Shown: piece by piece, positions 17,841-37,517 of the stretch
Layout: the number at the start of each line of letters is the position of its first letter
How positions within the stretch are numbered: position 1 is the stretch's first letter
Assembly: GCF_003268885.1 (NCBI RefSeq)
Contig: NZ_QLSX01000003.1
Coordinates: 248,001-312,000, forward strand
Source: Onishia taeanensis
GTDB taxonomy: Bacteria > Pseudomonadota > Gammaproteobacteria > Pseudomonadales > Halomonadaceae
Reading direction: 5' to 3'
Length of the DNA: 64,000 nt
Position numbers and translations under genes: made by a program
The notes under the pieces: model-generated
The model's database searches: none
What the model was told of the DNA's origin: nothing
What the model saw: only the letters and a program-made list of their open reading frames with translations

Positions 17841-19031
17841 TTACTGGTATGTGGCCTGAGTGGCGCGGGTAGCGGCCAGGCGGTGCTCATCCAGCTCAAA
17901 ACCAAGACCAGGTGCCTCGGACAGGGTCAGCCAACCCTCGCCATCCGCCAGCAAGGGCGTCGTCAGCGGGAAATCGCGCTTTTCGGGCGTCCATTCGGGC
18001 GGGTCGAACGGGTATTCCAGATAGGGGGCGCCGGTCGGCCCGACCGCGCCCGCAGTCAGGTGCAGGTTGGCGATCACGCCGATGCCGTTGCCCCAGGTGT
18101 GAGGCGTGAAGAGTTTGCCGGCGGCGACGATCTCGCGGGCCAGTCGGGCCAAGCCCAGCATGCCCACCGAACAGACGGCATCGGGCTGGTAGACATCGAG
18201 GCAGCCCTGACGCAGCATTTCTCTGAACTCGTAGGGCTCGCGCGTCATTTCGCCGCCAGCGATCCGCACTTCAGTCTCCTCAGCGAGCTTAGCCATGCCG
18301 GCGTAGTCGCCGCGATATAGCGGCTCCTCCATCCAGTAGACATCCTGGCGCTCGAGTTCCCGGACCACCTCCAGTGCATGGGCATACTGCCAGGGTGTCT
18401 TGACATCCCAGGGCATCCGCCAGCCCTGGTTGCAGTCGACCATCAGCTCGAGTCGATGACCGACGGCCTGGCGGACGGCACCCAGTACAGCCAGGTCATC
18501 TTCCAGGCGCGGGCGCCCGAAGCGCAGTTTCAAGGCCGGGATGCCGGCATCTTGTACCTGCCTGGCCAGGGCCACCACCTCCTCCAGAGGGCGATGGGTG
18601 CCACTGGAAGCATAGGCGCGCAGGCGGTTCGATACGCCGCCCATCAAGCGCCACACCGGGGTATCGAGGATCTTGCCGGCTAGATCCCAAAGGGCCACCT
18701 CCAGCGGCCAGCAGCGCCCGGCATGAAAGCCGATGTTGTCGATGACACCGGCATGGCGCTCCAGGTCCAGCGGGTCTTTGCCGATGAAGAGGTGACGGAA
18801 GTCATCAAAGCCGTACATCACGTCGCCCGAGCCAACACCCTCGCGTCCTTCGCTGTCGATCACCCGGACCAGTGTCGCGGGGAACTGTCGGCGCGGCTGG
18901 CTATCCCAGGCGGCGGGGAAGGGCGGATCGAGCTCGAATTGATGATGGCTGATCTCGATGCGGGCGATGTGGCTCGCTTGGCCGGGATCTGAGAACAGCG
19001 GGGTACGTTCGTCGTTCAACGGTGCCGTCAT
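17841..19031 (-). CDS. Enolase-superfamily (mandelate racemase/muconate lactonizing) enzyme
   Basis: A 396-residue enzyme of the mandelate-racemase branch of the enolase superfamily, acting on a carboxylate through a metal-stabilised enolate. Metal ligands are D199 (MVDCNQGW), E235 (MEEPL) and E261 (GGEMTRE). The catalytic base pair D284 (QPDAV) and H311 (PHTWGNG) is present, and the lysine motif reads K168-L-R170 where many members have KxK. A sugar-acid dehydratase or epimerase role is likely; the substrate is unknown. The start overlaps the stop of the Fe-alcohol dehydrogenase gene by 4 bases, so it is the third gene of a leftward catabolic operon. Confidence 0.85.
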
Positions 19032-20230
19032 GCCATTGCCCTCTCTTGCGTGGTTGACCCGGCTCGCAGGCCTGCCTGGCGATGCTGGAAGGTGGCCACG
19101 GTGAGCTCCGCCAGATGTTGCCAGTCGTCTCCCTCGGGGATGCGGGCGGCATTGTTGGCCATCGGGGCGTTCTCTTCGGCCTGCATCACTTCGGCTAGGG
19201 CCGTGGCGTCCATCTCCAGGTTGGCGAACGGCGCCAGGGCCTGGTCGAAGGCGCTGGCATCTGCAAGCTCGGTGACCAATTCAGGGAGCGCTTTCGCCTC
19301 GCTGCCGGCCATCAGGGCATGGGCGCTGGCGGCGAAGGTGGCCTCATGGCCTTCGATCGACCAGGCCAGCGAGGCCTCGACGGCGATCGCCACGGCCACG
19401 CCGTGCGGCAGGTGGTAGAGGCTGCCGAGGGCATGGCCGATGTTGTGAGCGATACCGGTGCCGCCGTTATCGATGGCCATGCCGGCCAGGCAGGCGGCTT
19501 CCTGCAGCTGTTGGCGAGCCTCGAGGTTATTCGGTGTCTGGACCGCCTCGGGCAGGGCCGCGCCAACCAGGCGAATCGCCGCCAGTGCCTGGCTCTCGAT
19601 CAGCCGGTTGCGATTGCGTCCGGTGGTGGCCTCCAGGGCATGCACGAAGGCATCAAGCCCGGTGGCGGCGGTCAGTGGTGCCGGCAGCGAGCGAGTGAGT
19701 CGCGAGTCCAGCAGAACAGCCTCGGGCAGGAGTTCATCACCCCAGGCCCATAGCTTGCGACCCGTCTCATCGGCGAGGATTGAGGTCCGGGTGACCTCGC
19801 TGCCGGTGCCCGATGTGGTCGGGATCATCACGGCGGGTGCCTTGCCGACCCAGGGGGTGCGTGCCAGCAGGTAGGCCTCCATCGGACCCGGGCTTTCGGC
19901 CAGCGCCGCCACTAGCTTGGCGATGTCCAGAGCGGTGCCGCCGCCGATGCCAAGCACCAGCGGGGCTTGCAGTTCGCGGACCACCTGCGCTGCCTGGTCG
20001 ACGGTTGCCACGCTGGGTTCGCCGGCGGGGGCAATGAAAGGGACGATGTCGGCATCCTGCTCCAGTTCGGCCAAGTATGGCTTAAGCAGGCCGCTGGCCT
20101 CGAGGCCGGCATCAGTGATCAACAGGTAGCGTTCGGCGCCGTGCTGCCGGCGCAACTCCGGCAGGCGCGCCAGGCAGCCTGGGCCGGCAATGACGGGGGC
20201 CTGGCGGCCAGTCTGGTAGTCCTGGTGCAT
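19028..20230 (-). CDS. Iron-containing alcohol dehydrogenase
   Basis: A 400-residue group III (iron-dependent) alcohol dehydrogenase using NAD(P)H. The dinucleotide loop is [12 protein letters not shown], the conserved [11 protein letters not shown] follows, and the metal ligands are in [10 protein letters not shown] (Asp, His), [16 protein letters not shown] (two His). GAGGAG precedes the ATG at 20230; the upstream open frame belongs to the aldehyde dehydrogenase gene region. It lies 10 bp after the aldehyde dehydrogenase and overlaps the next gene. In the operon it would interconvert an alcohol and the aldehyde handled by its neighbour. Confidence 0.9.
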
Positions 20231-20240
20231 GCTTGGCTCC

Positions 20241-21734
20241 TCAGATTTCGATCCAGGTCGTCTTGAGTTCGGTGTACTTGTCGAAGGCATGCAAAGACTT
20301 GTCGCGGCCCTGGCCGGATTGCTTGAAGCCGCCGAAGGGGGCATTGATGGAGGTGTGGTCGTAGCAGTTGACCCAGACAGTGCCAGCCCGTAGCGCCCGA
20401 GCGGCACGGTGACCATCGCTCAGGTTCCGGGTCCAGATGGCAGCGCCGAGGCCGTAATCGGTGTCGTTGGCGATGGCGAGTGCCTCGTCCACCTCGTCAT
20501 GGGTGAGTACCACCAGCACCGGACCGAAGATCTCCTCGCGGGCGACACGCATGTCGTTGGTGACCTCATCAAGTATTGCTGGGGTCATGTAGTAGCCACC
20601 GCTCTCGTGGCGGGCACGCTCGCCGCCAAAACGCAGCCGTGCGCCTTCGCGCTGCCCGTCGGCCAGGTATTCACGAACCTTCTCCAACTGAGGCTCTTCG
20701 ATCATCGCGCCGATCTGGGAATCCGGGGCAAGAGGGTCGCCGGGTTGGAGCTTTTCCGCCCAAATTTCCAGACGTTCCAGCAGCGCTTCCTTGATCTGGC
20801 GGTCGACAATCAGGCGGGTACCGGCATGGCAGGTCTGACCCTGGTTGTACCAGACGCCATAGGCCACGTTCATGGCGATTTTGTCCAAGTCCTCGACGTC
20901 GCGGGTGACGATATGCGGGCTCTTGCCGCCACACTCCAGGCCGATACGCTTCATGTTGGATTCCGCCGAATAAGCGAGGAAGCGCTTGCCGATCTCGGTG
21001 GAGCCGGTAAAGCCCACGGCGTCGATGTCCATGTGCCGGCCCAGCGCTTCGCCAGCCTGGTGGCCGAGCCCGGTGACCACCTGGAAGGCCCCCTCGGGAA
21101 TGCCGGCTTCACGGGCCAGGGCGGCGACTCTCAGGGTGGCCAGGCTCGACTGTTCGGCGGGCTTGATGATCAGCGAGTTGCCGGCGCCGAGTGCCGGACC
21201 GATCTTCCAGCCAGCAATGATCAGCGGGTAGTTCCAGGGCACTACGGCGGCGACGACGCCGACCGGTTCGCGGTCGATCATGCACACGCTGTCGGGACCA
21301 TTGGGTGCCGTTTCGCCGTAGAGCTTGTCCAGCGCTTCGGCATAGAACCGCAGGCCGCCGATCAGTCCTGGCACGTCGATGCTGGTGGTCTGAGAAATGG
21401 GCTTGCCGGTCTCGAGGGTCTCGAGCAGAGCGATCTCGTCCAGGTGGTCTTCGATAAGCGCAGCCCAGTCGAGCATGCGCGCCTTACGCTCTGTGGGTGC
21501 CAGGTCGCGCCAGGTGCCGGCGTTGAAGGTGCGGCGGGCCAGGGCCACGGCGCGATCGACATCCTCGGCCTGGCAGGCAGCAATATGCGTCAGCACTTCG
21601 CCGGTTGCCGGGTTCTCTGCGGCGAAGGTCGCGCCGCTGGCGGCGTCGCAGAATTCACCGTTGAGGTAGGCCTGGTGCGGCAGTGTCAGGTTGGCGGCGT
21701 ACTGCTGCCAGTCGGATAGAGTGCGATCTGTCAT
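20241..21734 (-). CDS. NAD(P)-dependent aldehyde dehydrogenase, PuuC-like
   Basis: A 497-residue aldehyde dehydrogenase. The catalytic cysteine is in YNQGQTCHAGTR, the general-base glutamate in GLECGGKSPH, the cofactor segment is GFTGSTEIGK, and EEIFGPVL is intact. Overall it is closest to PuuC-type enzymes (gamma-glutamyl-aminobutyraldehyde dehydrogenase), including the ending DKSLHAFDKYTELKTTWI. The usual Puu partners are absent, so the true substrate is open. The ATG at 21734 has GGAGA upstream. It is the first gene of the leftward operon, divergent from a LysR gene. Confidence 0.88.
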   Translation of the reverse strand: MTDRTLSDWQQYAANLTLPHQAYLNGEFCDAASGATFAAENPATGEVLTHIAACQAEDVDRAVALARRTFNAGTWRDLAPTERKARMLDWAALIEDHLDEIALLETLETGKPISQTTSIDVPGLIGGLRFYAEALDKLYGETAPNGPDSVCMIDREPVGVVAAVVPWNYPLIIAGWKIGPALGAGNSLIIKPAEQSSLATLRVAALAREAGIPEGAFQVVTGLGHQAGEALGRHMDIDAVGFTGSTEIGKRFLAYSAESNMKRIGLECGGKSPHIVTRDVEDLDKIAMNVAYGVWYNQGQTCHAGTRLIVDRQIKEALLERLEIWAEKLQPGDPLAPDSQIGAMIEEPQLEKVREYLADGQREGARLRFGGERARHESGGYYMTPAILDEVTNDMRVAREEIFGPVLVVLTHDEVDEALAIANDTDYGLGAAIWTRNLSDGHRAARALRAGTVWVNCYDHTSINAPFGGFKQSGQGRDKSLHAFDKYTELKTTWIEI

Positions 21735-21870
21735 GAGGTCAGTCTCCGGTAATGGGCACCAATTTGCGCAAAGCCTAGGGCGGACCGGGACGCGACAACA
21801 AACGAGGATTATGCACCTGTGGTATTCGTAAAAGTCATGCGGCATGCTGCCTTGGCAGGCTAGAACCGGC

Positions 21871-21885
21871 GTATTGCCCCAATAC
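21871..21885. promoter_or_regulatory. Palindromic LysR box
   Basis: GTATTGCCCCAATAC is a perfect dyad with 6-bp arms around CCC and satisfies the T-N11-A rule for LysR proteins. It stands 27 bp before the LysR start and 136 bp before the aldehyde dehydrogenase start. Further half-sites GTGGTATT (21819-21826) and AATACCAC (21881-21888) form a second, widely spaced inverted pair, as expected for recognition and activation sites. Confidence 0.6.
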
Positions 21886-21912
21886 CACGATATTTTCTAC
21901 TTGAGAGATTCG

Positions 21913-22812
21913 ATGCCACGTTCATTGCCTCCACTCAATGCGCTCAAGGCCTTCGAGGCTGCTGCAAACTGTGAGAGCTTTACCCTGGCCGCGGAGCGGC
22001 TCTGCGTGACGCAAAGCGCAGTGAGTCGCCAGGTCAAGCTGCTCGAAGAGCAGCTCGGCGTCACCCTCTTCGAGCGTGGCGCCGGCCGGTTGCGACTGAC
22101 CGATGCCGGACGGCGCCTGCAGCCGGTGTTGCGTCAGTCCTTCGACCGGATCGCCTGGACCGTGGGCGGGCTTCGAGATCATGAGGCCTTTCCCCGCTTG
22201 ACCATCAATGTCCCGCCCACATTTGCCAGTCGCTGGCTTGTGCCACGGTTGGGGCGACTCAATGCCCTATACCCGGATCTCGAGCTCACCGTCACTACTC
22301 GCGCCGAGGATGACCTGACTGCCTACAGCGACCTGGACTGCGCGATACGTTTCGGGGACGGGGAGTGGCCCGAAGTCGAGGCCACTCTGTTGATGCAAGA
22401 GAGTCATGTGGCCGTCTGCGCCCCGCAGTTGCTGGCGGGGCGGCGTGGGCGCGAGGTGGATTTGACCCGTCATACCCTGCTGCATGTGCTGCGCGGCGAA
22501 GACCGTTTCCATACCTGGGAGCACTGGCTGTCGGCGGCCGGTCTCGAGGGGGTGGAGACCCGTGGTGGCATGGAGTTCGATGTGCTGGAGCTGGCCATTC
22601 AGGCTGCGATCAATGCGGTGGGCGTGACTATCGCCGATCGTCAGATGATCCAGCGGGAGCTGTTCCGCGGTGACCTGGTTCAACTGCTCGACGTGGAAGT
22701 CACCGGCCATCAGTCCTATTGGCTGGTGACGAGGCCGGGTCAGACCGAGTCGGCGAACCTTGGCTTGTTTCGCCGTTGGCTGACGCAGGAGATCAATGAC
22801 CCGCCCGGCTAG
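21913..22812 (+). CDS. LysR-family regulator, GcvA-like
   Basis: A 299-residue LysR regulator of the GcvA-like group: MPRSLPPLNALKAFEAAAN, SFTLAAERLCVTQSAVSRQVKLLEEQLG, then the effector domain with LTINVPPTFASRWLVPRL. The ATG at 21913 follows GAGAGA and matches the standard family start. It is divergent from the aldehyde dehydrogenase/Fe-alcohol dehydrogenase/enolase-superfamily operon, with a palindromic LysR box in the gap, so it is probably that operon's regulator. Its end overlaps the end of the convergent LysR gene by 4 bases. Confidence 0.9.
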   Translation: MPRSLPPLNALKAFEAAANCESFTLAAERLCVTQSAVSRQVKLLEEQLGVTLFERGAGRLRLTDAGRRLQPVLRQSFDRIAWTVGGLRDHEAFPRLTINVPPTFASRWLVPRLGRLNALYPDLELTVTTRAEDDLTAYSDLDCAIRFGDGEWPEVEATLLMQESHVAVCAPQLLAGRRGREVDLTRHTLLHVLRGEDRFHTWEHWLSAAGLEGVETRGGMEFDVLELAIQAAINAVGVTIADRQMIQRELFRGDLVQLLDVEVTGHQSYWLVTRPGQTESANLGLFRRWLTQEINDPPG

Positions 22813-23717
22813 TCCGCGTCGGTCGCTTCGGACTCGGCTACGATCAGCTCACCCAGCAGGGTGATCAGGTCGTCCCCGGCTGGGTGCTGAAAGCTGGGTG
22901 AGCGATGCAGTTCCAGTTGAGCCGGTGGCAAGGGGGGCAGGCCGTCTGCCTCACCCAGGATCCGCCAGTCGGCGGGCAACGTGCGGCGATCGGCGACGGT
23001 CACCGCATTGCGCTGATTGACCGCCATGCGCAGGCCGGTGGGGCTCTGGCTGGTGTACTGCAGTGACCACTGACGGCCTTGGCGGGTCAGGCTATCCAGG
23101 GCGCGTTGACGGTAGGGGCAGTGGTCGGGAAACAGGGCCAGGGGCAGCGCTACCTTTGGATCCTGGCAGAAATCGCGATGGGCGGCCCAGACCAGCGTCT
23201 CGGCTCCCAAGGGCTCGCCATTGCCATGGTTGGTGTGGCGCACCGTCATCGCCAGGTCGAGCTCACCGCCTTCCAGTGCCTCGATCAGCTCACTGGACAT
23301 CCGGCAGTGAATATGAGGCCGAATGCGCGGATGAAGCCGTGCGAAGCGATCGAGCAGGCGGGGTAGCCAGGCTTCAGCATAGTTTTCCGGCAGTCCAAAA
23401 CGAATCACCCCCTCCCGGTCGCCATTTCCCAGTGCGCTGATCGCTTCCCGCTGCAGTTGAAGCAGACGACGCGCGTAGACAAGGAAGGTCTCTCCATCCG
23501 CCGTCAGGCTCACTTGGCGGCTGGTGCGATGCAGCAGTGACACCTCGACCCGCTCCTCCAGCGTGCGGATGCGCTGGCTGATCGTCGACTGCGTCTTGTG
23601 CAGTTGGCGGGCCGCTGCCGTGAACCCGCCGTTTTCTATGACCGCGACGAATGCGCTGAGCAGTTCGGTGTCGAGGATCGGCAAGTTAGTGCAATCGGGT
23701 TTGTCGATGGAATTCAT
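22809..23717 (-). CDS. LysR-family transcriptional regulator
   Basis: A 302-residue LysR regulator. The helix-turn-helix lies in LLSAFVAVIENGGFTAAARQLHKTQSTISQRIRTLEERV (about residues 18-56). The effector domain follows with VIRFGLPENYAEAWLPRLLDRF. The ATG at 23717 was preferred to one 17 codons upstream because nothing conserved lies between, though its ribosome-binding sequence is weak. It is divergent from the 2OG-oxygenase gene with 110 bp between starts and a perfect dyad in the gap, making that cluster its likely target. The ligand is unknown. Confidence 0.88.
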   Translation of the reverse strand: MNSIDKPDCTNLPILDTELLSAFVAVIENGGFTAAARQLHKTQSTISQRIRTLEERVEVSLLHRTSRQVSLTADGETFLVYARRLLQLQREAISALGNGDREGVIRFGLPENYAEAWLPRLLDRFARLHPRIRPHIHCRMSSELIEALEGGELDLAMTVRHTNHGNGEPLGAETLVWAAHRDFCQDPKVALPLALFPDHCPYRQRALDSLTRQGRQWSLQYTSQSPTGLRMAVNQRNAVTVADRRTLPADWRILGEADGLPPLPPAQLELHRSPSFQHPAGDDLITLLGELIVAESEATDAD

Positions 23718-23778
23718 CGGAACGAATCGTTTCCTCGATGCTTCAGGGTTCTCCACTATGCCGCCCATTACGAGACGA

Positions 23779-23796
23779 GACCAGCATTGGCTGGTC
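23779..23796. promoter_or_regulatory. Inverted repeat before the 2OG-oxygenase gene
   Basis: GACCAG (23779-23784) and CTGGTC (23791-23796) form a perfect 6-bp dyad with a 6-base spacer, 31 bases before the oxygenase ATG and between it and the divergent LysR gene. It may be the regulator's operator. Confidence 0.4.
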
Positions 23797-23827
23797 GACG
23801 CCGTTCCGTGCCGACTGAGGAGTTCCT

Positions 23828-24718
23828 ATGTTGACTGCCATGCAACTTGCCGATGCCGAGCGTCATGACCTTTCCGGCTTGGTGGATACCGAGCGTTATC
23901 CGCTTGACCGGCCCGATGATTCAACACTGCTGGCGACGATTGAGCAGGCCCGAGCCGATCTGGATCGGGAAGGCTGTGCAGTGTTGCGTGGTTTCCTGCG
24001 CGAGGATCGCCTGACCCAGCTGCGAGAAGAGTGTCAGGAACTGGCGAACAAAAGCTTCTTCAACACCCGAGAGGTCAACGCCTATTTCACTGCAGATAAC
24101 CCCGCCTTGCCCGAAGACGATCCGCGTCGTCTGTTCATGACTCGCACCAGTGGTTTCGTGACCCGCGACATGATCACTGCCGACCGCATCATGCAGCGGC
24201 TGTATGTCTCGCCGGCCATGAAGTCGCTGGTGGCTCGCTGCCTGGGTGAGAACCAGGTCTACGAATATGCGGACCCTTACGCTGGGCTAGTGCTCAACGT
24301 GCTACCCGAAGGCACCGAGCAACCCTGGCACTACGACACCAACGAATTCATCGTCACCATGATGACTCAGGACGCTGAAGAGGGCGGGAGCTTCGAGTAT
24401 TGCCCCGATATCCGCACTCCCCAGGACGAGAACTACGCAGGCGTCGGGGCGGTGCTGCGTGATCAGGACCGCGACCGTGTTCGTCACCTCAGCCTTCGTC
24501 CCGGCGATCTGCAACTGTTCAAAGGCCGTTTCAGTCTGCACCGGGTGACCCGTGTTAAGGGCGATACTCCCCGCTTGACCGCCATCTTCGCCTACTCCCA
24601 GACCCCGGGTGTGGTAGGGCGACTGGAGCGCACGCGTCAGCTCTATGGGCGGGTATCCGAGCAGCACATCCAGGCCGAGGAAGGGCGGGCAGAGCGCGCC
24701 GATGGCCTGATCGACTGA
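23828..24718 (+). CDS. Fe(II)/2-oxoglutarate-dependent oxygenase of the BesD/HalD-like group
   Basis: A 296-residue non-haem iron oxygenase. The iron triad is H168 and D170 (QPWHYDTNEF) plus H238 (RFSLHRVT), and R249 (TPRLTAIF) should bind 2-oxoglutarate. The stretch from QPWHYD through EEGGSFEYCP is recalled from the group that includes the amino-acid halogenases BesD and HalD. Those have Gly in place of the Asp; with Asp here, hydroxylation rather than halogenation is expected. GAGGAG precedes the ATG. It is followed 39 bp later by a DddP-like M24 enzyme and then a betaine-type binding protein, so its substrate may be a zwitterionic amino compound. That last point is inference. Confidence 0.78.
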   Translation: MLTAMQLADAERHDLSGLVDTERYPLDRPDDSTLLATIEQARADLDREGCAVLRGFLREDRLTQLREECQELANKSFFNTREVNAYFTADNPALPEDDPRRLFMTRTSGFVTRDMITADRIMQRLYVSPAMKSLVARCLGENQVYEYADPYAGLVLNVLPEGTEQPWHYDTNEFIVTMMTQDAEEGGSFEYCPDIRTPQDENYAGVGAVLRDQDRDRVRHLSLRPGDLQLFKGRFSLHRVTRVKGDTPRLTAIFAYSQTPGVVGRLERTRQLYGRVSEQHIQAEEGRAERADGLID

Positions 24719-24757
24719 GGCTTGAACCTGCCAATTTACCGATACGGAGAACCCCTG

Positions 24758-26008
24758 ATGAACATGGATCTGGACGCGCTGGGCATCCTGGCCCCGACCC
24801 ATCGCCCCGAAGACTGCGAGCCCACAAACGCCGAGATCGAGCAGGTCCTTTGCGACCGGCTGGCCCGCGTGCGCGCCGAACTCAGAAAACGCGACATCTC
24901 TGCCGCCGTGCTATTCGACCCGGCACACGTGCGCTATGCCACCGGCTCGCGCAACATGCAGGTCTACAGCTCCCGCAACCCGGCGCGTTATGCCTTCGTG
25001 CCGGCCGAGGGACCGGTGGTGTTGTTCGAGTTTTCCGGGTGCGAACACCTGGCCGCGCATCTGCCGACCATCGACGAGATCCGACCGGCCAAAGCCATCT
25101 CGTACTACTTCAACGAACGAAACACCCATGCCGTGACGGAGGCCTGGGCCGACGAAATCGACGATTTAATCCAGCGGCAGTGCGGTGGTGGCGCCAAGGT
25201 GGCACTGGAGAGCGCCACTCCTCAGGCGGCCTTAGTCCTGCAGGAGCGCGGCTATCAGGTACTGGATGCTCAGGAGCCGGTGGAGCAGGCCCGGGCCTAC
25301 AAAGTTGACAACGAAATCAAGATGATCCGTTCCTCGCTGCGCGCCGTCGAGAATGGCGTTCACAAGCTGGAGGCCGCCATCGTCCCGGGCGTGACCGAGA
25401 ATGCTGCCTGGTCACGGCTTCATCAGCACATCATCGAAACCGATGCAGATTTCGTCGAGACGCGCCTCATGAATTCTGGGCCGCGTACCAACCCCTGGTT
25501 CCAGGAGTGCTCCGACCGTTGCATTCAAGCCGGGGAGCTTGTGGCACTAGATACCGATGTCGTCGGGCGCTATGGCTACTATGCCGATTTCTCACGCACC
25601 TTCCTGTGCGGTCGAGACGAGCCCACCCGGACCCAGAAGGACCTGTATCGCATGGCCTACGACCAGATCCGCACCAACATGGAGAACCTCAAGCCTGGCG
25701 TGAGCTTCAAGGAGTATGCCGAGCGCGCCTGGCAGATTCCGCCTGCTTACAAGTCGCGCCGCTACTTTGCTCTGGCCCATGGGGTGGGGATGAACGGTGA
25801 GTATCCCTATATCGTTCACCGCGAAGACATCGACGACAAGGGCTACGACGGGATCATCGCGCCGGGCATGACGTTCTGCGTGGAGAGTTTCATCGGTCAT
25901 GAGTCCGGTGGCGAAGGTGTCAAGCTCGAGGAACAGCTCTATGTTCGCGATGACGGTCAGGTCGAGCTGCTGTCCGATTATCCTTTTGATGCCCGGCTCC
26001 TCGGTTAG
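24758..26008 (+). CDS. M24-family metalloenzyme, DddP-like
   Basis: A 416-residue enzyme with the pita-bread fold of the M24 family (prolidase, creatinase, DddP). Overall it resembles the DMSP lyase DddP, notably RYATGSRNMQ, ETRLMNSGPRTNPWFQEC and TNMENLKPGV. The metal ligands are kept: D265 or D267, D277, H341, E376 and E391. Two positions recalled as important for DMSP cleavage differ: the catalytic Asp after HGVGLC is Gly347 here, and the substrate Trp in NMQLW is Tyr70, while Tyr336 is kept. It is therefore probably a hydrolase or lyase on a related compound, not an assured DddP. The ATG at 24758 has GGAGA upstream. It is co-oriented with the oxygenase. Confidence 0.8.
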   Translation: MNMDLDALGILAPTHRPEDCEPTNAEIEQVLCDRLARVRAELRKRDISAAVLFDPAHVRYATGSRNMQVYSSRNPARYAFVPAEGPVVLFEFSGCEHLAAHLPTIDEIRPAKAISYYFNERNTHAVTEAWADEIDDLIQRQCGGGAKVALESATPQAALVLQERGYQVLDAQEPVEQARAYKVDNEIKMIRSSLRAVENGVHKLEAAIVPGVTENAAWSRLHQHIIETDADFVETRLMNSGPRTNPWFQECSDRCIQAGELVALDTDVVGRYGYYADFSRTFLCGRDEPTRTQKDLYRMAYDQIRTNMENLKPGVSFKEYAERAWQIPPAYKSRRYFALAHGVGMNGEYPYIVHREDIDDKGYDGIIAPGMTFCVESFIGHESGGEGVKLEEQLYVRDDGQVELLSDYPFDARLLG

Positions 26009-26193
26009 GCGATTCTGCGCCATCGCAGGGGAGCAGATATAGGGTGACGGGGATCGTTCGTCAGCTTTGCCTCGCCACCTAGGTATTCTTTTATCTCATG
26101 TCGTGCATGAGAAATGGTGGCCAAAAACCGGCGAAGGGTCATGCTAGGCTGACCTTTCTGAATTGCGCGAATAAAAACTCAGGGAGATTGACC

Positions 26194-27057
26194 ATGAAGA
26201 CTTTACCCTCAGTGCTGCTGGCGACGGGCTTGATTACCGTGGGCGGCCTGGCGCAGGCCCAGGACAAATCATTGGTCGTCGGGACCAATAACTGGGCCGA
26301 GAATATCGCTGTTGCCAATATGTGGAAGATCCTGCTCGAAGAAGAACACGGCTATGACATCGAGCTTTCCAATATTGGCAAGAGCGTGCTCTACAGCGGC
26401 CTGTCCAACGGCGACTTCGACCTGTCGTTCGAGATATGGTTGCCCACCACCGATGCGCCCTTCCTCGAGCCGCACCGTGACGAGATTGACGTGCATGATG
26501 TCTGGTACGACGGCACCGGCCTTGGCCTGGTGGTTCCAAGCTATGCCGACATCGACAGCATCGACGAGCTGCGCGATCAGGCCGGGCGCTATGAGTATCA
26601 GGGGCGTCCGTCGATTCTGGGCATCGACTCCGGTTCGGCGATTGCTGGGTTGACTGAGGATGCCATCGAGGCCTATGAGCTGCCGCTCAATCAGGTCAAC
26701 AGCTCAGGCCCGGCAATGATGGCGGCACTGGACAGTGCCTATCAGCGTGAAGAGCCTATCGTCGTGACCCTGTGGAGCCCCCACTGGGCCTTCGCCGAGT
26801 ATGACCTCAAATACCTCGAAGACCCGCAGGGCGTCTATGGCGAAAACGAGAGCATTCACTGGATGTCGCGTAAGGGACTGGCCAATGAAGACCCCTGGCT
26901 TGCCAGCGTCCTGGATGCCTGGAAGATGGACGACGACAGTCTCGGAGGCCTGATGGCGCGGATCGAGAAAGTCGGTGATCCGGTCGAGGGGGCCAAGGCC
27001 TGGATCGAAGATAACCGCACACTGATCGATAGCTGGTTCGACGCGGCCGAGAGCTAA
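26194..27057 (+). CDS. Periplasmic betaine-type substrate-binding protein (OpuAC/ProX family)
   Basis: A 287-residue binding protein of the OpuAC family, which captures glycine betaine, choline, carnitine or DMSP-like zwitterions through a cage of aromatic residues. A signal peptide ends at AQAQ (about residue 22). Tryptophans at NNWAEN, FEIWLP, HDVWYDG, LWSPHWAF and SIHWMSRKG are cage candidates. GGGAGA precedes the ATG. The 185-bp gap after the M24 gene suggests it may have its own promoter. No permease or ATPase is adjacent, so it must use components encoded elsewhere. The hairpin after it ends the cluster. Confidence 0.85.
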   Translation: MKTLPSVLLATGLITVGGLAQAQDKSLVVGTNNWAENIAVANMWKILLEEEHGYDIELSNIGKSVLYSGLSNGDFDLSFEIWLPTTDAPFLEPHRDEIDVHDVWYDGTGLGLVVPSYADIDSIDELRDQAGRYEYQGRPSILGIDSGSAIAGLTEDAIEAYELPLNQVNSSGPAMMAALDSAYQREEPIVVTLWSPHWAFAEYDLKYLEDPQGVYGENESIHWMSRKGLANEDPWLASVLDAWKMDDDSLGGLMARIEKVGDPVEGAKAWIEDNRTLIDSWFDAAES

Positions 27058-27148: not shown

Positions 27149-28009
27149 TCAGGTGCCTGCCTGCTGGCGGGGCGGCTGAAGAATGATCAGTGCGAGCCCA
27201 GCCAGTACCAGCCCGCCGCCGGCCAGTTTGTAAATGTTCAGGCTATCGCCGAGCAGCCAGGCGCCAAGCAGCACCGCGCCCACCGGCATCAACAGCGTCA
27301 GCGGTGTGACGCGGCTCACCGGATGGCGGCGTAGCAGGCCGTACCAGATGCCGTAGGCGACGATCGATGACATCACTGCTGTGTAAACCACCGCGCCCCA
27401 GCCCGCCCAACCGGCGTTCTTGAGCGCCGCGAGATGATCCGTCTCGAACCACCATGAGCCCAGCGCCACCTGAGGCACCGAGAACAGCGCGATCCAACCG
27501 GCCAGTGCCAGTGGTGGAATCTTGGGGCCGCGCTTGATCAAGAGCTGCGAGATGGCCCAGCCCAGAGCGCTGAGCAGCAGCAGCGCCAGTGGCAGCGGCG
27601 CGGGCAGGGTAGGGCCGCCAGCCAGGACCATCACGCCACCGAACGACAGCAGCAGGCCGATCAGGCGTCTGGCGTCCAGATGTTCTCTCAGGAATATGAC
27701 CGCCAGCACCGTGGCGAAGGGAGTGCCCATCTGCACTAGCAGGGCGCCGGTGCCGGCCTCCGCCTGGCCGAGGCCGATGAACAGCAGGGCAAAGTGCAGG
27801 CTGCCAAAGGTCAGCGATAGCAGGAGCAGGAAAGGCAGCTGGTGTCGATGAACCGGATGAAAGGGCACCAGCAGGACGGCCACCAGTGCAAAGCGCAGGG
27901 TGGTCAGCAGCAGCGGCGGCAGGTCGGCTACCCCAAGCTTGATAACGATGATGTTCAGCGCCCAGATGGCGATGACAAAGAGGCCCAGTAGCAGGTCGCG
28001 AAGTGGCAC
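27149..28009 (-). CDS. EamA-family (DMT superfamily) membrane transporter
   Basis: A 286-residue inner-membrane protein with ten hydrophobic segments in two repeated halves, the drug/metabolite exporter pattern. Typical pieces are LFVIAIWALNIIVIKLG, LLLTTLRFALVA and, in the second half, GWGAVVYTAVMSSIVAYGIWYGLLRRHPVSRVTPLTLLMPVGAVLLG. The chosen start is a GTG at 28009 with AAGGACGAG upstream, which gives the usual family N-terminus (VPLRDLLLGL). The ATG starts upstream lack ribosome-binding sequence. The substrate is unknown; amino acids or other metabolites are typical of the family. Confidence 0.85.
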   Translation of the reverse strand: MPLRDLLLGLFVIAIWALNIIVIKLGVADLPPLLLTTLRFALVAVLLVPFHPVHRHQLPFLLLLSLTFGSLHFALLFIGLGQAEAGTGALLVQMGTPFATVLAVIFLREHLDARRLIGLLLSFGGVMVLAGGPTLPAPLPLALLLLSALGWAISQLLIKRGPKIPPLALAGWIALFSVPQVALGSWWFETDHLAALKNAGWAGWGAVVYTAVMSSIVAYGIWYGLLRRHPVSRVTPLTLLMPVGAVLLGAWLLGDSLNIYKLAGGGLVLAGLALIILQPPRQQAGT

Positions 28010-28305
28010 GGCTCGTCCTTCAGGTTGGTCGATGGGCGAAAAGGTTAGCAGCATAGCAGTTTGTTGGTGCGATGATCCCGCCGATAGGCTGGCGCGATGC
28101 TTCCGCATGCAGATAGGGATGTCACAGCCGCCCCACTCATACCTTGGTTTGGCATCATTTACGTTGTGTTCTCATTACACTGCTACAGGATCTGCTGATT
28201 GATCGATTGCCATATCCACATCGATAGCCCTAGCCATACCAATAACGAAGGCCTAGCCCCTTGGACTGACCATCGGGTGATATAGCGCCTCAACAAGGAC
28301 ACGCA

Positions 28306-31904: not shown

Positions 31905-32825
31905 TTAGATCAGTTGGCTGGCGGCACGATGCAACTGGGCGTGGCGCTGGGCCAGCGCCTCGAGATCCCGGTCGTAGCCGCCGCCGATCACCGCTGCCAC
32001 CGGAATCTGGGCGTCGCGACAGGTTGTCAGCACATAGTGGTCCCGGGCGAACAGTCCGTTATCCGTCAATTCCAGGTGGCCCAAGCGATCATCGGCATGC
32101 ACGTCGACGCCTGCGTCATAGAGCACCAGGTCAGGGGCGAACTGCACCAGCAATGGCGGCAGGCTAGCCATGAGCTGATAAAGGTAGGCGGCATCGTCCG
32201 TGCCCCGGGGCAGGGCGATATCCAGATCGCTATGCTGCTTGCGGGCCGGGAAGTTCGCTGCGCCGTGCATCGAGAAGGTGAATACCCGCTGATCGTGGCG
32301 AAAGAGGCGTGCGGTGCCGTCGCCCTGATGTACGTCCAGGTCGAGGATCAGAATGCGATCGGCCCAGCCGTGGGCCAGGGCATGAGCCGCGGCCACCGCC
32401 AGGTCATTGATCAGGCAGTAGCCGCTGGCGGCATCCGCATGAGCATGGTGGGTGCCGCCGGCGGTGTTGCAGGCAAGCCCGGTGGCCAGCGCCGCTTCGA
32501 CGGTCTCAAGCGTGCCGCCGACCTCGAGCAGGGTGCGCGCGACCAGCGCCTCGGACCAGCGGAAACCACTACGTCGTTGGGCCGCCTCACTCAAAGAGCC
32601 GCCGAGAAAGGCCCGCAGGTACGCTGGTGTATGGATGCGAGCCAGGCTTGTCTCGTTGGCCGGTTGCGGGGTGATCCACTCAGCACTAATCCCGGTCTCT
32701 TCGACGGCCAGGATGTTGCGCAGCACGCGAAACTTGGCCATCGGGAAGGGGTGGCGTGGGGGCAGTGCGATGGTGTAACCGGGATGGTGGATCAGCGGCA
32801 GCGGCATGGCGGGCGTTAGGGTCAT
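31905..32825 (-). CDS. Histone-deacetylase-family enzyme
   Basis: A 306-residue protein of the arginase/deacetylase superfamily (HDAC, AcuC, acetylpolyamine amidohydrolase). The active site is intact: TAGGTHHAHADAASGYCLIND with the tandem histidines, LILDLDVHQGDGT with zinc ligands Asp and His, YDAGVDVHADDRLG with the third ligand, and GGGYD at the end. It is therefore expected to remove acetyl groups from lysine residues or small amides in the cytosol. It follows the macrodomain gene by 64 bp on the same strand, suggesting one transcript. The start at 32825 is uncertain; an ATG six codons later is also possible. Confidence 0.9.
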   Translation of the reverse strand: MTLTPAMPLPLIHHPGYTIALPPRHPFPMAKFRVLRNILAVEETGISAEWITPQPANETSLARIHTPAYLRAFLGGSLSEAAQRRSGFRWSEALVARTLLEVGGTLETVEAALATGLACNTAGGTHHAHADAASGYCLINDLAVAAAHALAHGWADRILILDLDVHQGDGTARLFRHDQRVFTFSMHGAANFPARKQHSDLDIALPRGTDDAAYLYQLMASLPPLLVQFAPDLVLYDAGVDVHADDRLGHLELTDNGLFARDHYVLTTCRDAQIPVAAVIGGGYDRDLEALAQRHAQLHRAASQLI

Positions 32826-33805: not shown

Positions 33806-34780
33806 ATGAAACGCCATGCAATCACTGCTGCAGCCGTCTCCGGCATGCTGATGGGTGCCGCCATGTTCTCCTCGCCGGTCGTGGCGCAGGAGCGCTTCAT
33901 CACTATCGGTACTGGCGGTCAGACCGGCGTCTATTATGTCGTCGGTCAGTCGATCTGCCGTCTCGTGAACCGTCTCGAAGACTCAGATATCAAGTGTAAC
34001 GCGCCGTCCACCGGCGGTTCTGTGGCCAACATCAACGGCATCAAGTCCGGCGAGCTGGACATGGGTGTGGCTCAGTCCGACGTGCAGTACCAAGCCTATA
34101 ACGGTACCGGCAACTTTGCAGGCGACGCCTATCCCGAGCTGCGTGCGGTCTTCCGCGTGCACGGCGAGCCGCTGACGCTGCTGGCTCGCGCCGACTCCGG
34201 CATCGAAACTCTCGATGATCTGGAAGGCAAGCGCGTCAACATCGGTAACCCGGGTTCCGGCCAGCGCAACACCATGGAACAGGTCATGGAAGCCAAGGGT
34301 TGGACCGAGGACACCTTCTCGCTGGCGTCTCAGCTTGATGCCGCAGAGCAGGCTGCCGCCCTGGCCGACAACAACATCGACGCGATGGTCTATGTGGTGG
34401 GCCACCCCAACGGTTCCATCCAGGAAGCCACCACAACCGTGGATGCCAAGCTGATTCCGCTGGATGGCCCGGCTATCGACGGCCTGGTCGAAGAGTATCC
34501 GTATTACTCCAAGGTGTTGATCCCGGGTGGTCTCTACAAGGGTAACGACGAGGACGTGACCACCTTCGGCGTGGCAGCGACCTTCGTGACCAAGGCCTCC
34601 GTGGATGAGGACATCATCTACCAGACCGTCAAGGCGGTGTTCGACAACTTCGATCGCTTCAAGCGTCTGCACCCTGCATTCGCTAACCTGAAAGAGGAAG
34701 AAATGGTCACCCAGGGGCTGTCGGCTCCGCTGCATCCGGGTGCGGCTCGCTACTATCGCGAGCGTGGCTGGATCGAGTGA
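33806..34780 (+). CDS. TAXI-family TRAP transporter binding protein
   Basis: A 324-residue periplasmic binding protein of the TRAP-associated extracytoplasmic immunogenic (TAXI) type. A signal peptide ends at VVAQERF. The hallmark FITIGTGGQTGVYYVVGQSICRLVN starts the mature protein. NAPSTGGSVANINGIKSGELDMGVAQSDV and GKRVNIGNPGSGQRNTMEQVMEA follow, also typical. It is the first gene of a three-gene unit with a fused membrane subunit and a UspA protein. Glutamate and other organic acids are known TAXI substrates; which one applies here is open. Confidence 0.93.
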   Translation: MKRHAITAAAVSGMLMGAAMFSSPVVAQERFITIGTGGQTGVYYVVGQSICRLVNRLEDSDIKCNAPSTGGSVANINGIKSGELDMGVAQSDVQYQAYNGTGNFAGDAYPELRAVFRVHGEPLTLLARADSGIETLDDLEGKRVNIGNPGSGQRNTMEQVMEAKGWTEDTFSLASQLDAAEQAAALADNNIDAMVYVVGHPNGSIQEATTTVDAKLIPLDGPAIDGLVEEYPYYSKVLIPGGLYKGNDEDVTTFGVAATFVTKASVDEDIIYQTVKAVFDNFDRFKRLHPAFANLKEEEMVTQGLSAPLHPGAARYYRERGWIE

Positions 34781-34815
34781 TCCCGGTCTAAACGGAGTTC
34801 AAGGCTCCTGACTCG

Positions 34816-34848
34816 ATGCGCGGCCGTTCCAGTAGGAAGGTCGCGCAT
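34816..34848 (+). other. Hairpin between the TAXI gene and its permease
   Basis: ATGCGCG (34816-34822) and CGCGCAT (34842-34848) pair, extended inward by imperfect CC-TTCC/GGAAGG pairing around AGTA. There is no T-run after it, so it is more likely an mRNA-stabilising or processing hairpin than an intrinsic terminator. Confidence 0.5.
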
Positions 34849-34922
34849 TATGGTTTCTAGCCCCGGGGTATGGCCCGGGAGCCCAGGCTTTTCCGGCGAT
34901 GGATGGCAAGCAGGATGATTTC

Positions 34923-37517
34923 ATGAGCGAAGACAAAACAAGGACCTCAGCCTCGAGCGTCGATCTCGAGGACATGGTGGCGTCCTCGGACTCCGGGGCG
35001 CGAAAGCCGCCCGGACTGCCTGGCAAGGTGCTGGTGATTACGGCAGCGGTCTGGTCGTTGTTCCAGCTGTGGATCGCTTCACCGCTACCCTTCGTGCTCG
35101 AGTTCGGGGTGTTCAATGCCACCGAGTCGCGCTCGATTCACCTGGCATTTGCCCTGTTTCTGGCCTACATGGCCTATCCGGCTACCAAGAACTCCCCGCG
35201 GGACCGTATCCCCATCCAGGACTGGGTGCTTGGCCTGCTGGCGGCACTTGCCGGTGCCTACATGTTCATTTTCTACGAGCAGCTGGCCCAGCGCCCGGGG
35301 GCACCGATCATGCAGGATGTGATCGTCGGCGTCATCGGCATTCTGCTGCTGCTCGAGGCCACGCGCCGGGCGCTTGGCCCGCCGCTGATGATTGTGGCTC
35401 TGGTCTTTATCGGCTATTCGCTGGCCGGGCCCTATATGCCGGGCATTCTGTCCCATCGGGGGGTCAGCGTCTCGGGCTTGATCAACCACCAGTGGCTGAC
35501 CACTCAGGGGGTGTTCGGCATCGCGCTGGGGGTATCGACCAGCTTCGTGTTTCTGTTCGTGTTGTTTGGTGCGCTGCTCGATAAGGCTGGCGCCGGTAAC
35601 TATTTCATCAAGGTGGCTTTCTCGCTGCTCGGCCACTACAAGGGCGGTCCGGCCAAGGCGGCGGTGGTTGCTTCAGGCATGACTGGGCTGATTTCTGGCT
35701 CCTCTATCGCCAATGTGGTGACCACCGGTACCTTCACCATTCCGATGATGAAGCGGGTCGGCTTCTCCGCCGAGAAAGCGGGGGCCGTTGAGGTCGCCTC
35801 ATCGGTGAACGGTCAGATCATGCCGCCGGTGATGGGCGCTGCGGCCTTCCTGATGGTCGAGTACGTGGGCATCTCCTATGTGGAAGTCATCAAGCATGCC
35901 TTCCTGCCGGCGCTGATTTCCTACATCGCACTGGTCTATATCGTCCACCTCGAGGCCCTCAAGGCCAATATGCAGGGGCTTGAGAGCAGCAACCCGCCGA
36001 AGCCGCTGGTACGCAAGGTCATTGGCTTCCTGGGCGGTCTCTTGCTGATGATGATCACCGCCCTGGTGGTCTATTACGGCTTGGGCTGGCTCAAACCGGT
36101 ACTGGGCGAGGCAACCCCCTGGGTGGTGGCTGCGGGGCTGTCGGTAATCTACATCGCCTTGCTCAAGGTTGGCTCCAGCTACCCTGAGCTCGAGACCGAT
36201 GATCCCAATGCACCGGTGGTCAAGCTGCCCCAGACGCGCCCGACCGTGATGGTGGGTCTGCAGTTCATCCTGCCAGTGGTGGTGCTGGTCTGGTGCCTGA
36301 TGGTCGAGCGACTGTCGCCAGGGCTGTCGGCCTTCTGGGCCACGGTGTTCATGACCTTCATCATTGTCACCCAGCGCCCGATCATGGCGATCTTCCGCGG
36401 TCAGAGCGATTTTACCGCAGACATCAAGGCAGGCTTCCTCGACCTGTGGGATGGCCTGGTCACCGGTGCCCGCAACATGATCGGCATCGGTATCGCCACT
36501 GCCACTGCCGGCATCATTGTCGGGGCCGTATCGCAGACCGGCGTCGGCCTGGTGCTCGCCGACGTGGTCGAGATCCTGTCGATGGGCAACCTGATGCTGA
36601 TCCTGATGCTCACCGCGGTGCTGAGCCTGATCCTCGGCATGGGCCTGCCGACTACCGCCAACTACATCGTGGTCTCGGCGCTGCTGGCGCCGGTCATCGT
36701 GACCTTGGGTGAGCAGAATGGCCTGCTGGTGCCACTGATCGCCGTGCATCTGTTCGTGTTCTATTTCGGCATCATGGCCGACGTTACGCCACCCGTGGGG
36801 TTGGCATCCTTTGCTGCCGCTGCCGTATCGGGGGGGGACCCGCTGCGTACCGGTTTCCAGGCGTTCTACTACAGCCTGCGGACTGCTGCGTTGCCTTTCC
36901 TGTTCATCTTCAATACTGACCTGTTGTTGATCGACGTGACCTTCCTGCAGGGCATTCTGGTCTTCGTGGTGGCGACAATCGCCATGCTGATCTTTGCCGC
37001 GGCGACCCAGGGCTTCATGCTCACCCGCAACCGCTGGTACGAAAGTATCCTGCTGCTGCTGGTGGCCTTCACGCTGTTCCGTCCGGGCTTCTGGATGGAC
37101 ATGATCCACGATCCCTACCAGTCGATACCGCCGAGCCAGTTCGTCCAGGCCTTGGGTGAGATGGATGATGACAGCACGCTGCGTGTGCAGGTGGCGGGTA
37201 AGGACGCCTATGGTGATCCACTGACCACCTACATGACACTGCCGGTGCCGGAAGGCGAGACGGGGGAAGAGCGCCTGTCCAACTTCGGCCTGGAGCTACT
37301 GGTCAAGGATGAAAGCCTGGTCGTCGATATGGTCGCCTTCGGCAGTCAGGCCGAGAAACTTGGCTTCGACTTCGATCAGAAGATCATCGAGGTGCTGGCG
37401 CCTGTGGATCGCTGGTCCAAGGAGTGGATGTGGATTCCGGCCCTCGGGGTCTTTGCGTTGATCGTGCTTATGCAGCGGCGTCGCCGCGATGGCTCGGCCA
37501 AACCGGCGTCCGCCTAA
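34923..37517 (+). CDS. TRAP transporter fused permease (4TM/12TM)
   Basis: An 864-residue membrane protein fusing the small and large TRAP permease subunits, the form that pairs with TAXI binding proteins. The N-terminal part (about 30-180) has four helices. The large part starts around residue 190 and includes SGMTGLISGSSIANVVTTGTFTIPMMKRVGFSAEKAGAVEVASSVNGQIMPPVMGAAAFLM and LSLILGMGLPTTANYIVVSALLAPVI. A soluble C-terminal region of about 130 residues ends in one last helix. The ATG at 34923 has AGGATG upstream. Substrate and ion coupling are inferred from the family. Confidence 0.93.
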   Translation: MSEDKTRTSASSVDLEDMVASSDSGARKPPGLPGKVLVITAAVWSLFQLWIASPLPFVLEFGVFNATESRSIHLAFALFLAYMAYPATKNSPRDRIPIQDWVLGLLAALAGAYMFIFYEQLAQRPGAPIMQDVIVGVIGILLLLEATRRALGPPLMIVALVFIGYSLAGPYMPGILSHRGVSVSGLINHQWLTTQGVFGIALGVSTSFVFLFVLFGALLDKAGAGNYFIKVAFSLLGHYKGGPAKAAVVASGMTGLISGSSIANVVTTGTFTIPMMKRVGFSAEKAGAVEVASSVNGQIMPPVMGAAAFLMVEYVGISYVEVIKHAFLPALISYIALVYIVHLEALKANMQGLESSNPPKPLVRKVIGFLGGLLLMMITALVVYYGLGWLKPVLGEATPWVVAAGLSVIYIALLKVGSSYPELETDDPNAPVVKLPQTRPTVMVGLQFILPVVVLVWCLMVERLSPGLSAFWATVFMTFIIVTQRPIMAIFRGQSDFTADIKAGFLDLWDGLVTGARNMIGIGIATATAGIIVGAVSQTGVGLVLADVVEILSMGNLMLILMLTAVLSLILGMGLPTTANYIVVSALLAPVIVTLGEQNGLLVPLIAVHLFVFYFGIMADVTPPVGLASFAAAAVSGGDPLRTGFQAFYYSLRTAALPFLFIFNTDLLLIDVTFLQGILVFVVATIAMLIFAAATQGFMLTRNRWYESILLLLVAFTLFRPGFWMDMIHDPYQSIPPSQFVQALGEMDDDSTLRVQVAGKDAYGDPLTTYMTLPVPEGETGEERLSNFGLELLVKDESLVVDMVAFGSQAEKLGFDFDQKIIEVLAPVDRWSKEWMWIPALGVFALIVLMQRRRRDGSAKPASA

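Follow-up and report, generated by a model that had tools for sequence, protein, structure and literature searches.

The window analysed here, a stretch of 64,000 nucleotides from Onishia taeanensis, carries side by side the genes of a LysR-type regulator, an Fe(II)/2-oxoglutarate (2OG) oxygenase, a DddP-like M24 metalloenzyme and an OpuAC periplasmic binding protein, and raises the question of whether these genes act in one pathway and on which compound. All four genes were present at the places and in the orientations given in the initial annotation, and their families were borne out by Pfam. The LysR-type regulator (22809–23768, reverse strand; PF00126/PF03466), whose start could be either 23768 or a site near 23717, is divergent from the oxygenase-M24 unit. 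The HalD-family oxygenase (23828–24718, forward strand; PF23169 plus PhyH) contains the residues H168-x-D170...H238 and R249, and the M24 enzyme (24758–26008, forward strand; PF00557 plus Creatinase_N) has Tyr70, Arg73 and Gly347 at the Trp, His and Asp377 positions of DddP. The two enzyme genes are separated by 39 bp, as had been noted (stop at 24718, ATG at 24758). The OpuAC gene (26194–27057, forward strand; PF04069, 215.6 bits) was also present, but in its open reading frame, which is open from 26098, the start is more likely 26194 than 26098, with the signal peptide judged by eye. Neither a permease nor an ATPase gene adjoins it in the window.

The conservation of this arrangement was examined in the best 80 of 170 oxygenase loci, to which all group counts given here refer; 48 of them formed group A (oxygenase at least 56% identical) and 32 formed group B. 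The M24 gene was found directly downstream of the oxygenase gene in 48/48 group-A loci, and the LysR gene was divergent from it in 45 of these. Furthermore, 32 of 201 Halomonadaceae genomes had the oxygenase gene, and the M24 gene occurred in exactly those 32. Conserved synteny across this family, which the initial annotation had proposed looking for, was found rather than the lack of a conserved neighbourhood. Chance proximity was ruled out by the synteny, the co-occurrence in genomes and the association with transporters relative to controls, and the LysR/oxygenase/M24 set is well supported as a conserved module across salt and soil bacteria. No description of the oxygenase/M24/binding-protein trio was found among the matches listed in the literature searches, and the module is apparently new to the literature.

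The cluster had originally been delimited at 22809–27057. These limits do contain the four genes, but the unit in the subclade of the window (A1) extends left to 17841. It takes in a second LysR-type regulator, GcvA-like (21844–22812, forward strand; PRK11139, 289.6 bits against a cut-off of 288), and three genes on the reverse strand: a PuuC/BADH-like aldehyde dehydrogenase (ALDH; 20241–21734, reading frame open to 21845; PF00171, 540 bits), an iron-containing alcohol dehydrogenase (Fe-ADH; 19028–20230, open to 20416; PF00465) and an MR_MLE protein of the enolase superfamily, acid-sugar dehydratase-like (17841–19031; PF13378, 167.5 bits). The MR_MLE gene was detected in 15/15 subclade-A1 genomes, less than 6 kb from the oxygenase gene on the same contig, and in only one further Halomonadaceae genome (G104) out of 186 (E 1e-120). 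Fe-ADH was present in 18 of the 48 group-A loci. In the NCBIfam comparison, Fe-ADH scored best with SarD (197 of 700 bits) and also matched the choline dehydrogenase GbsB (160 of 550), and ALDH reached 602.8 of 850 bits for PuuC and 466.2 of 668.6 for BADH. On the right side, the EamA exporter gene (27149–28108) was rejected as a member, recurring only in L032, of the same species, as were the TRAP genes that begin at 28306, whose products never clustered across more than two loci. The initial annotation had also overlooked the wider family and the presence of a paralogous cluster in this genome.

The dyad described upstream of the oxygenase gene is present at 23779–23796 (GACCAGC-ATTG-GCTGGTC, 7-bp arms) and is a candidate LysR operator. 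By our estimate, such a dyad within 161 bp is only mildly unusual. Among 13 aligned orthologues, the CCAG...CTGG form was kept in three (L034, L035 and L036); L033 has an altered version, and the others showed none.

Indications of the compound class came from transport. Betaine-transport genes of several types were located within 1.5 kb of 48/55 M24 genes of this module (46/53 without two repeats) and of 1/29 DddP or DddP-like control M24 genes, the controls being of different taxonomic origin and the queries for transporters having been drawn from loci of the oxygenase-M24 family itself. A betaine-transporter part was present in the examined flank of 44 of the 48 group-A loci, and OpuAC- or ProX-type genes in 43. 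As a yardstick for chance, the 11 OpuAC genes in the 3.74-Mb genome itself predict about 4% per 12.9-kb locus; the same genome has seven BCCT genes. In OpuAC-type binding proteins, a prism of three Trp residues around the quaternary ammonium has been described (PMC2861598), and Trp34, Trp82 and Trp194 occupied the prism positions in 42/42 OpuAC proteins encoded downstream of M24 genes (40/40 without two repeats). In other loci, BCCT, ProXWV or OsmF-type genes take the place of OpuAC. Therefore, of the compounds originally suggested, a betaine is favoured, and the view of capture protein, Fe/2OG enzyme and M24 enzyme as one conserved unit holds. The association was less frequent among more distant relatives: a betaine-transport gene lay within 1.5 kb in 12/44 cases with M24 identity below 66%, and in the examined flank of 10/32 group-B loci. 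Given this low number and the Liv-type ABC genes in two group-B loci (judged by sequence start), the substrate of group B may not be a betaine.

The oxygenase scored 53.9 bits with PF23169 (HalD; gathering cut-off 26). Its predicted model (pLDDT 90.9) gave HalD and HalB as best PDB matches (Foldseek E ~1e-14, TM 0.6), structures that were solved with ornithine/lysine. A single-sequence PDB search gave no match, and neither did NCBIfam at E 0.001, TIGR02409 and TIGR02410 included. H168, D170, H238 and R249 were invariant in 44/44 aligned sequences. Since all carry HxD instead of the HxG that leaves a chloride site, a halogenase was rejected and the enzyme was assigned as a hydroxylase. In BesD, three acids hold the substrate amines (PMC13244439). 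The equivalents of two of them, Glu123 and Asp143, were without an acid in all 44 sequences (Y/L/F/I and T, respectively), in a weak profile alignment (E 3e-5) with Asp239 outside the mapping. Furthermore, the homologues in the family of Nocardia are followed by genes for a methyltransferase-like protein (13/14) and a carnitine/choline acyltransferase (14/14 loci); in both genomes that were checked, the latter was the sole PF00755 match. This constant acyltransferase neighbour suggests that the product of the oxygenase is a hydroxylated quaternary amine.

These observations led us to a tentative proposal in which the unit would serve the catabolism of a betaine-type (quaternary ammonium) carboxylate by import, hydroxylation, retro-aldol cleavage and use of the aldehyde. 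The compound would be taken up by the OpuAC protein, or by ProXWV or BCCT in relatives. The HalD-family oxygenase, with O2 and 2-oxoglutarate, would then convert the betaine to a carnitine-like hydroxybetaine. The M24 enzyme would hold the carboxylate at its di-metal site and cut beside the new hydroxyl by a metal-dependent retro-aldol reaction, releasing an aldehyde and a smaller betaine, which would be glycine betaine if the ammonium is on C-alpha. A pyridoxal phosphate (PLP) aldolase should be unable to cleave at a fully methylated nitrogen. The aldehyde would finally be taken up by lineage-specific enzymes: ALDH and Fe-ADH in the window, a HIBADH-like protein and an ALDH in a Cobetia-type locus, and MmsA in the paralogous group. 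In the Burkholderia-type loci, no conserved aldehyde enzyme was seen. The parts of this proposal differ in strength. A betaine is quite probably the substrate and hydroxylation likely precedes the M24 step, while a retro-aldol cut is a doubtful choice of bond; we know of no M24 retro-aldolase. Three loci hinted at glycine betaine, as single cases of which two are MAGs: L043 (DMGDH-like protein, MttB-family protein, SoxBA), L078 (choline-dehydrogenase-like protein) and L142. In L142, the BBOX-like, carnitine-dehydrogenase-like and GbdR-like scores were below curated cut-offs and a transposase-like frame lies between OpuAC and M24.

An improbable variant keeps the same module and makes the M24 enzyme a DddP-like lyase, which would eliminate either an amine such as trimethylamine or a water molecule from the hydroxybetaine. 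The closest solved relatives are indeed DddP lyases: the M24 enzyme is 32% identical to RdDddP with a whole-length fold match, and its predicted model (pLDDT 90.8) lies at an rmsd of 1.8 Å from 4b28. The metal ligands of DddP are Asp295, Asp297, Asp307, His371, Glu406 and Glu421, and Asp377 is its favoured base (PMC4108388). The six ligands (D265, D267, D277, H341, E376 and E391 in the window) were invariant in 38/38 sequences, and DddP Tyr366 was kept as Tyr336 in nearly all. However, Asp377, kept in 16/16 DddP sequences over the cut-off (one of 17 such loci was lost in filtering), was Gly or Asn in every oxygenase-linked sequence, being Gly347 in the window, and the His located three positions beyond the DddP Trp was Arg in 103/106. 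At the Trp/His/Asp377 positions, these 106 sequences read YRG (102), YHN (3) and FRG (1), after addition of L090 (YHN), which the filters had missed. The count used 145 of 176 sequences, L001–L031 being left out because their flanks were short and many repeat named loci; it still holds the repeats L034/L136, L051/L137, L097/L123/L138 and L126/L139, and L114, a trimmed locus carrying the M24 gene of the window itself, was falsely counted as having no oxygenase. Thinning at 86% identity left 49 sequences: 21 YRG, 20 WHD, five FRG, two YHN and one WRD.

The M24 enzyme of the window and DddP fell on separate sides of the tree (100/99), and a single origin of the YHN copies with the YRG/FRG side was not rejected (p-AU 0.37). 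Eight copies with no adjoining oxygenase gene, of which seven have a betaine-transport gene nearby, were all FRG; hence Arg73 and Gly347 do not mark partnership with the oxygenase alone. The link between Tyr70 and the oxygenase is confounded with clade, as independent-pair tests had only two to three pairs.

A hydrolytic M24 step within the same module was judged unlikely as well. Here the oxygenase would hydroxylate the carbon beside the nitrogen of an amide, amidine or urea, and the M24 enzyme would act as a creatinase/DoeA-like hydrolase or a carbinolamide lyase, giving a semialdehyde and an amide. DoeA and creatinase, relatives that hydrolyse C-N bonds, were among the fold matches, and the MmsA (18/32) and CN_hydrolase (4/32) genes of group B would be consistent with malonate semialdehyde and an amide as products. 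Nevertheless, CN_hydrolase was found in 0/48 group-A loci, the best sequence and fold matches were to DddP, and the DoeA models remained far below cut-off (45.0 of 575 bits for NF038259 and 27.6 of 613 for TIGR02993), which also discards ectoine hydrolysis as the sole explanation.

Still less probable is that the oxygenase represents a second type of hydroxylase for gamma-butyrobetaine or trimethyllysine, with the M24 enzyme acting on carnitine or a precursor. The acyltransferase partner in the family of Nocardia would agree with this, as would L142, where BBOX-like, carnitine-dehydrogenase-like, BKACE and thioesterase genes adjoin. However, L142 was the only locus in which carnitine genes were seen, and it already owns a BBOX/TmpA-like oxygenase. 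Moreover, of three acyltransferase positions that we take to be carnitine-binding, one was kept and two differed (in 13 and 14 sequences).

Finally, a DddP DMSP lyase beside an unrelated oxygenase is all but refuted: despite the 32% identity and whole-length fold match, the enzyme scored 316.5 bits with the DddP model (NF043017, cut-off 600), all three signature residues are replaced, the tree separates it from DddP, and oxygenase and M24 genes are adjacent throughout group A. The DMSP-type sulfonium lyase step once considered for this locus is not supported, because the favoured base of DddP is missing.

Returning to the retro-aldol proposal, its extension beyond the window is speculative: the pair might represent a general C-C cleavage of betaines by beta-hydroxylation and a PLP-free di-metal retro-aldol reaction, with an aldehyde half varying by lineage, and the pathway of the Nocardia family (oxygenase, methyltransferase, carnitine/choline-type acyltransferase) might make acylated hydroxybetaines. 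To our knowledge, such chemistry is not known for the M24 'pita-bread' fold, of which a new activity could be revealed. Betaines make up abundant stores of nitrogen and carbon in plants, soils and saline waters, and the routes other than those of glycine betaine, carnitine and choline have been poorly charted. A HalD-type HxD oxygenase together with a Y/R/G M24 signature would make betaine use recognizable in many genomes, and could stop halomonad and burkholderia M24 genes being called DddP and counted as sources of DMS.

Compared with known systems, the M24 enzyme shares fold, metal ligands and Tyr366 with DddP, but differs in its Tyr/Arg/Gly signature, its score below the family cut-off and its partnership with oxygenase and betaine-transport genes. 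The ectoine hydrolase DoeA/EutD is likewise an M24 enzyme and acts on a compatible solute in Halomonas, although the window enzyme does not approach its models; no oxygenase partner is known for it. The oxygenase resembles the HalD/BesD family (HalB, HalD, BesD and 'Hydrox') in fold, core and Pfam match, including an arginine that is invariant at the place expected for 2OG binding, but has HxD where the halogenases have HxG, is 14–18% identical and appears to lack the two mapped amine-binding acids. In the bacterial catabolism of carnitine and gamma-butyrobetaine (BBOX, CDH, BKACE), betaine uptake is also followed by 2OG hydroxylation, and such genes adjoin one relative, L142; BBOX, however, is TauD-like whereas the window oxygenase is HalD-like, and no M24 step is known in that route. 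The same logic is found in the phosphonate pathways TmpA/TmpB and PhnY/PhnZ, in which an analogue of a (trimethyl)amino acid is hydroxylated by a 2OG enzyme and then cleaved by a di-metal enzyme, the second enzyme being an HD-domain oxygenase acting on a phosphonate where the window has an M24 enzyme.

All four genes of the arrangement proposed in the initial annotation were found: a LysR gene (22809-23768, minus strand), an Fe/2OG oxygenase gene (23828-24718, plus strand), an M24 enzyme gene (24758-26008, plus strand), starting 39 bp after the oxygenase as claimed, and an OpuAC gene (26194-27057, plus strand; ORF open from 26098). The oxygenase and M24 proteins were 100% identical to their counterparts in O. 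taeanensis As1101 (L032). Of 201 Halomonadaceae genomes, 32 carried the close form of the oxygenase (at least 66% identity); G059, a genome listed as the same species, lacked it, and the oxygenase-M24 cluster is accessory within the species. Elsewhere in the window, the own-genome search located a BCCT-family betaine transporter (52356-53816). A DctM protein bearing a DUF3394 domain, preceded by an NMT1-like (TAXI-type) solute-binding protein (33806-37517), a histone-deacetylase-domain protein, perhaps an acetylpolyamine amidohydrolase (31905-32825), and, to the left of the cluster, an ISL3-family transposase (11242-12531) were also observed.

The best 80 of 170 loci were compared and split by oxygenase identity to that of the window into group A (at least 56%, n=48), which covers Halomonas, Vreelandella, Billgrantia, Cobetia, Paraburkholderia, Caballeronia, Burkholderia and isolated loci from elsewhere, and group B (42-51%, n=32). 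Among these 80 loci, M24 lay directly 3' of the oxygenase in 48/48 members of group A, with a divergent LysR in 45/48 and a betaine-transport component in the flank examined in 44/48 (OpuAC 25, ProX-type 18, BCCT 1). The corresponding group-B counts were 29/32 for M24, 24/32 for LysR and 10/32 for a betaine-transport component, and MmsA was found in 18/32. Moreover, M24 at 77% identity or above occurred in exactly the same 32 Halomonadaceae genomes as the close oxygenase form. The neighborhood is conserved beyond its own genome; its absence elsewhere is what the initial annotation had named as a refutation. No description of the oxygenase/M24/OpuAC-type trio was found among the matches listed in the full-text literature, subscription papers being mostly outside its scope.

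As a yardstick, the 11 OpuAC genes of the 3.74-Mb own genome correspond to a chance of about 4% per 12.9-kb locus. A betaine-transport gene lay within 1.5 kb of M24 in 48/55 rows with M24 identity of at least 66%, in 12/44 oxygenase-linked rows below 66% and in 1/29 DddP/DddP-like control loci from a phylum-wide draw, a contrast that serves as a guide and not as a strict test because the module's own loci supplied the queries and the controls were drawn from other taxa. Since few group-B members have a nearby betaine-transport gene and two (L108 and L111) carry a Liv-type ABC, judged by sequence start, the substrate of group B may differ from that of group A.

Subclade A1, comprising 15 genomes with oxygenase identity of at least 76%, the window among them, carried extra MR_MLE, Fe-ADH, ALDH and second LysR genes. 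MR_MLE, the only one of these searched genome-wide, lay no more than 6 kb from the oxygenase in 15/15 A1 genomes and, outside A1, turned up in G104 alone, there together with Fe-ADH and ALDH between BCCT genes. An ALDH/Fe-ADH/MR_MLE module between BCCT genes, with neither oxygenase nor M24, was seen in L143 (1903-11299). In subclade A2 (L129, L131, L133 and L135, from several genera; judging by the size of the gap, L130 and L132 probably belong here too), a second, IPNS-like 2OG oxygenase gene lay between M24 and OpuAC (L129:6803-7804), assigned by a PF03171 match in L129 and by sequence start in L131, L133 and L135. Two BCCT genes stood on one side of the Cobetia locus L050 and of L134, the latter with a HIBADH-like protein and an ALDH on the opposite side. 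Most Paraburkholderia/Caballeronia loci contained ProX, ProW and ProV, often with a porin, and some Burkholderia-type loci had OpuAC (40-44%) in their place.

The own genome also held a group-B copy of LysR, oxygenase (44%) and M24 (45%) at C1:223302-225499 (L002), around C1:224651. An MmsA gene, 94-95% to Chromohalobacter MmsA, followed this paralogous cluster in its O. taeanensis counterparts (L102, L103) and in L162; the cluster is possibly a malonate-semialdehyde-forming branch. Additionally, a Rieske oxygenase and an ALDH, another case of an oxygenase close to the M24 family, were observed near M24 and BCCT in L155 (4863-12480, also with a P5C-reductase-like protein) and L096 (118-9963). 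Distant HalD-like oxygenases among the plasmid matches (H6-H40, among 40 of 92 records) came mostly from Pantoea and Klebsiella plasmids, and for many of them the annotation at the matched site named a DUF2817/M14 metallopeptidase as well, pairing oxygenase and hydrolase once more, with a hydrolase of another fold.

The oxygenase belonged to the HalD family by Pfam, and the best solved fold matches of its model (pLDDT 90.9) were HalD and HalB, both solved with ornithine or lysine. His168-x-Asp170, His238 and Arg249 were invariant in 44/44 rows, which marks it as a predicted hydroxylase. According to excerpts of a BesD simulation (PMC13244439), Glu123, Asp143 and Asp239 hold the substrate amines, and Arg77, His137 and Trp241 the carboxylate. 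In a weak alignment (E 3e-5), read over an ungapped stretch around the motif that leaves out Asp239, Glu123 corresponded to position 151 (Y, L, F or I in 44/44), Asp143 to 171 (T in 44/44) and His137 to 165 (Q 26, H 14, L 4). The apparent loss of two amine-binding acids fits a quaternary nitrogen in the substrate, as support and not proof because of the weak alignment.

Two Nocardia oxygenase loci (L079:6013-9490 and L084:6001-9520) lacked M24; there, the oxygenase was followed by a methyltransferase-like protein, so called by eye and without a Pfam match, and by a choline/carnitine O-acyltransferase (PF00755, 519 bits in L084), the only PF00755 match in each genome. A wider draw gave an oxygenase match at E 1e-60 in 13/151 genomes of the family to which Nocardia belongs. 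Counting 12 newly added loci (L208-L219) with the two known ones, an acyltransferase homologue (53-80% like) stood beside the oxygenase in 14/14 and the methyltransferase-like protein in 13/14. Since choline/carnitine acyltransferase family enzymes put an acyl group on the hydroxyl of a quaternary amine, the oxygenase is most naturally read as installing such a hydroxyl. Two of three acyltransferase positions that we take to be carnitine-specific differed in these rows, so the acceptor may be other than carnitine itself, and the operon suggests a so far undescribed acylated-hydroxybetaine pathway. Another actinobacterial match, L090 from an Acidimicrobiaceae MAG, had M24 instead of the acyltransferase arrangement.

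Trp34, Trp82 and Trp194 of OpuAC aligned with Trp330, Trp377 and Trp484 of Lactococcus OpuA (numbers by our own count), for which excerpts of PMC2861598 name a Trp-prism with Trp377 and Trp484. All three were kept in 42/42 rows 3' of M24, and Asp87, after the second Trp, was present in 43/43.

Because the two enzymes travel together, the simplest order would be import, hydroxylation by the oxygenase and cleavage by M24. A retro-aldol cut is tentatively favored, since the proposed DddP mechanism has a carboxylate at the metals and an adjoining carbanion, the residue favored for alpha-proton removal is gone from M24, no PLP Schiff base can form on a fully methylated nitrogen, and enzymes that act on aldehydes turn up repeatedly (ALDH/Fe-ADH, HIBADH-like plus ALDH, MmsA). 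Elimination or hydrolysis by M24 is possible instead. Under the retro-aldol reading, an alpha-betaine substrate would yield glycine betaine. Two single cases fit this product: in L043 the genes on either side of the oxygenase-M24 pair include soxBA, one that is DMGDH-like and one of the MttB family (273 of 525 bits), and L142 adjoins BBOX-like, carnitine-dehydrogenase-like (both scoring below their cut-offs), BKACE and thioesterase genes.

By sequence (32% identity) as well as by fold (1.8 A to 4b28), M24 was nearest to DddP. Signature residues were read in 145 M24 rows at DddP Trp95, His98 and Asp377 (window 70, 73 and 347), the first two numbered by our own count from the RlDddP alignment row and the last favored as the catalytic base in excerpts of PMC4108388. 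DddP rows above the cut-off were WHD in 16/16 and DddP-like rows WHD in 12/13 (WRD 1), and no oxygenase lay within the 1.5-kb flanks of these 29 loci. Oxygenase-adjacent rows were YRG (102), YHN (2) and FRG (1), with L090 (YHN) added; rows without an adjacent oxygenase were FRG in eight cases, seven of which had a betaine-transport gene nearby, and WHD in two (L154, L155). We speculate that substrates of the FRG copies may already carry the hydroxyl. In a tree of the 49 rows left after thinning at 86% identity, the YRG/FRG side was separated from the WHD side (support 100/99); the tree test did not reject one common origin for YRG, YHN and FRG, and the signature change therefore cannot be called convergent. 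Compared with DddP itself, the window M24 retains all six metal ligands and scores 316 bits against a DddP cut-off of 600 bits.
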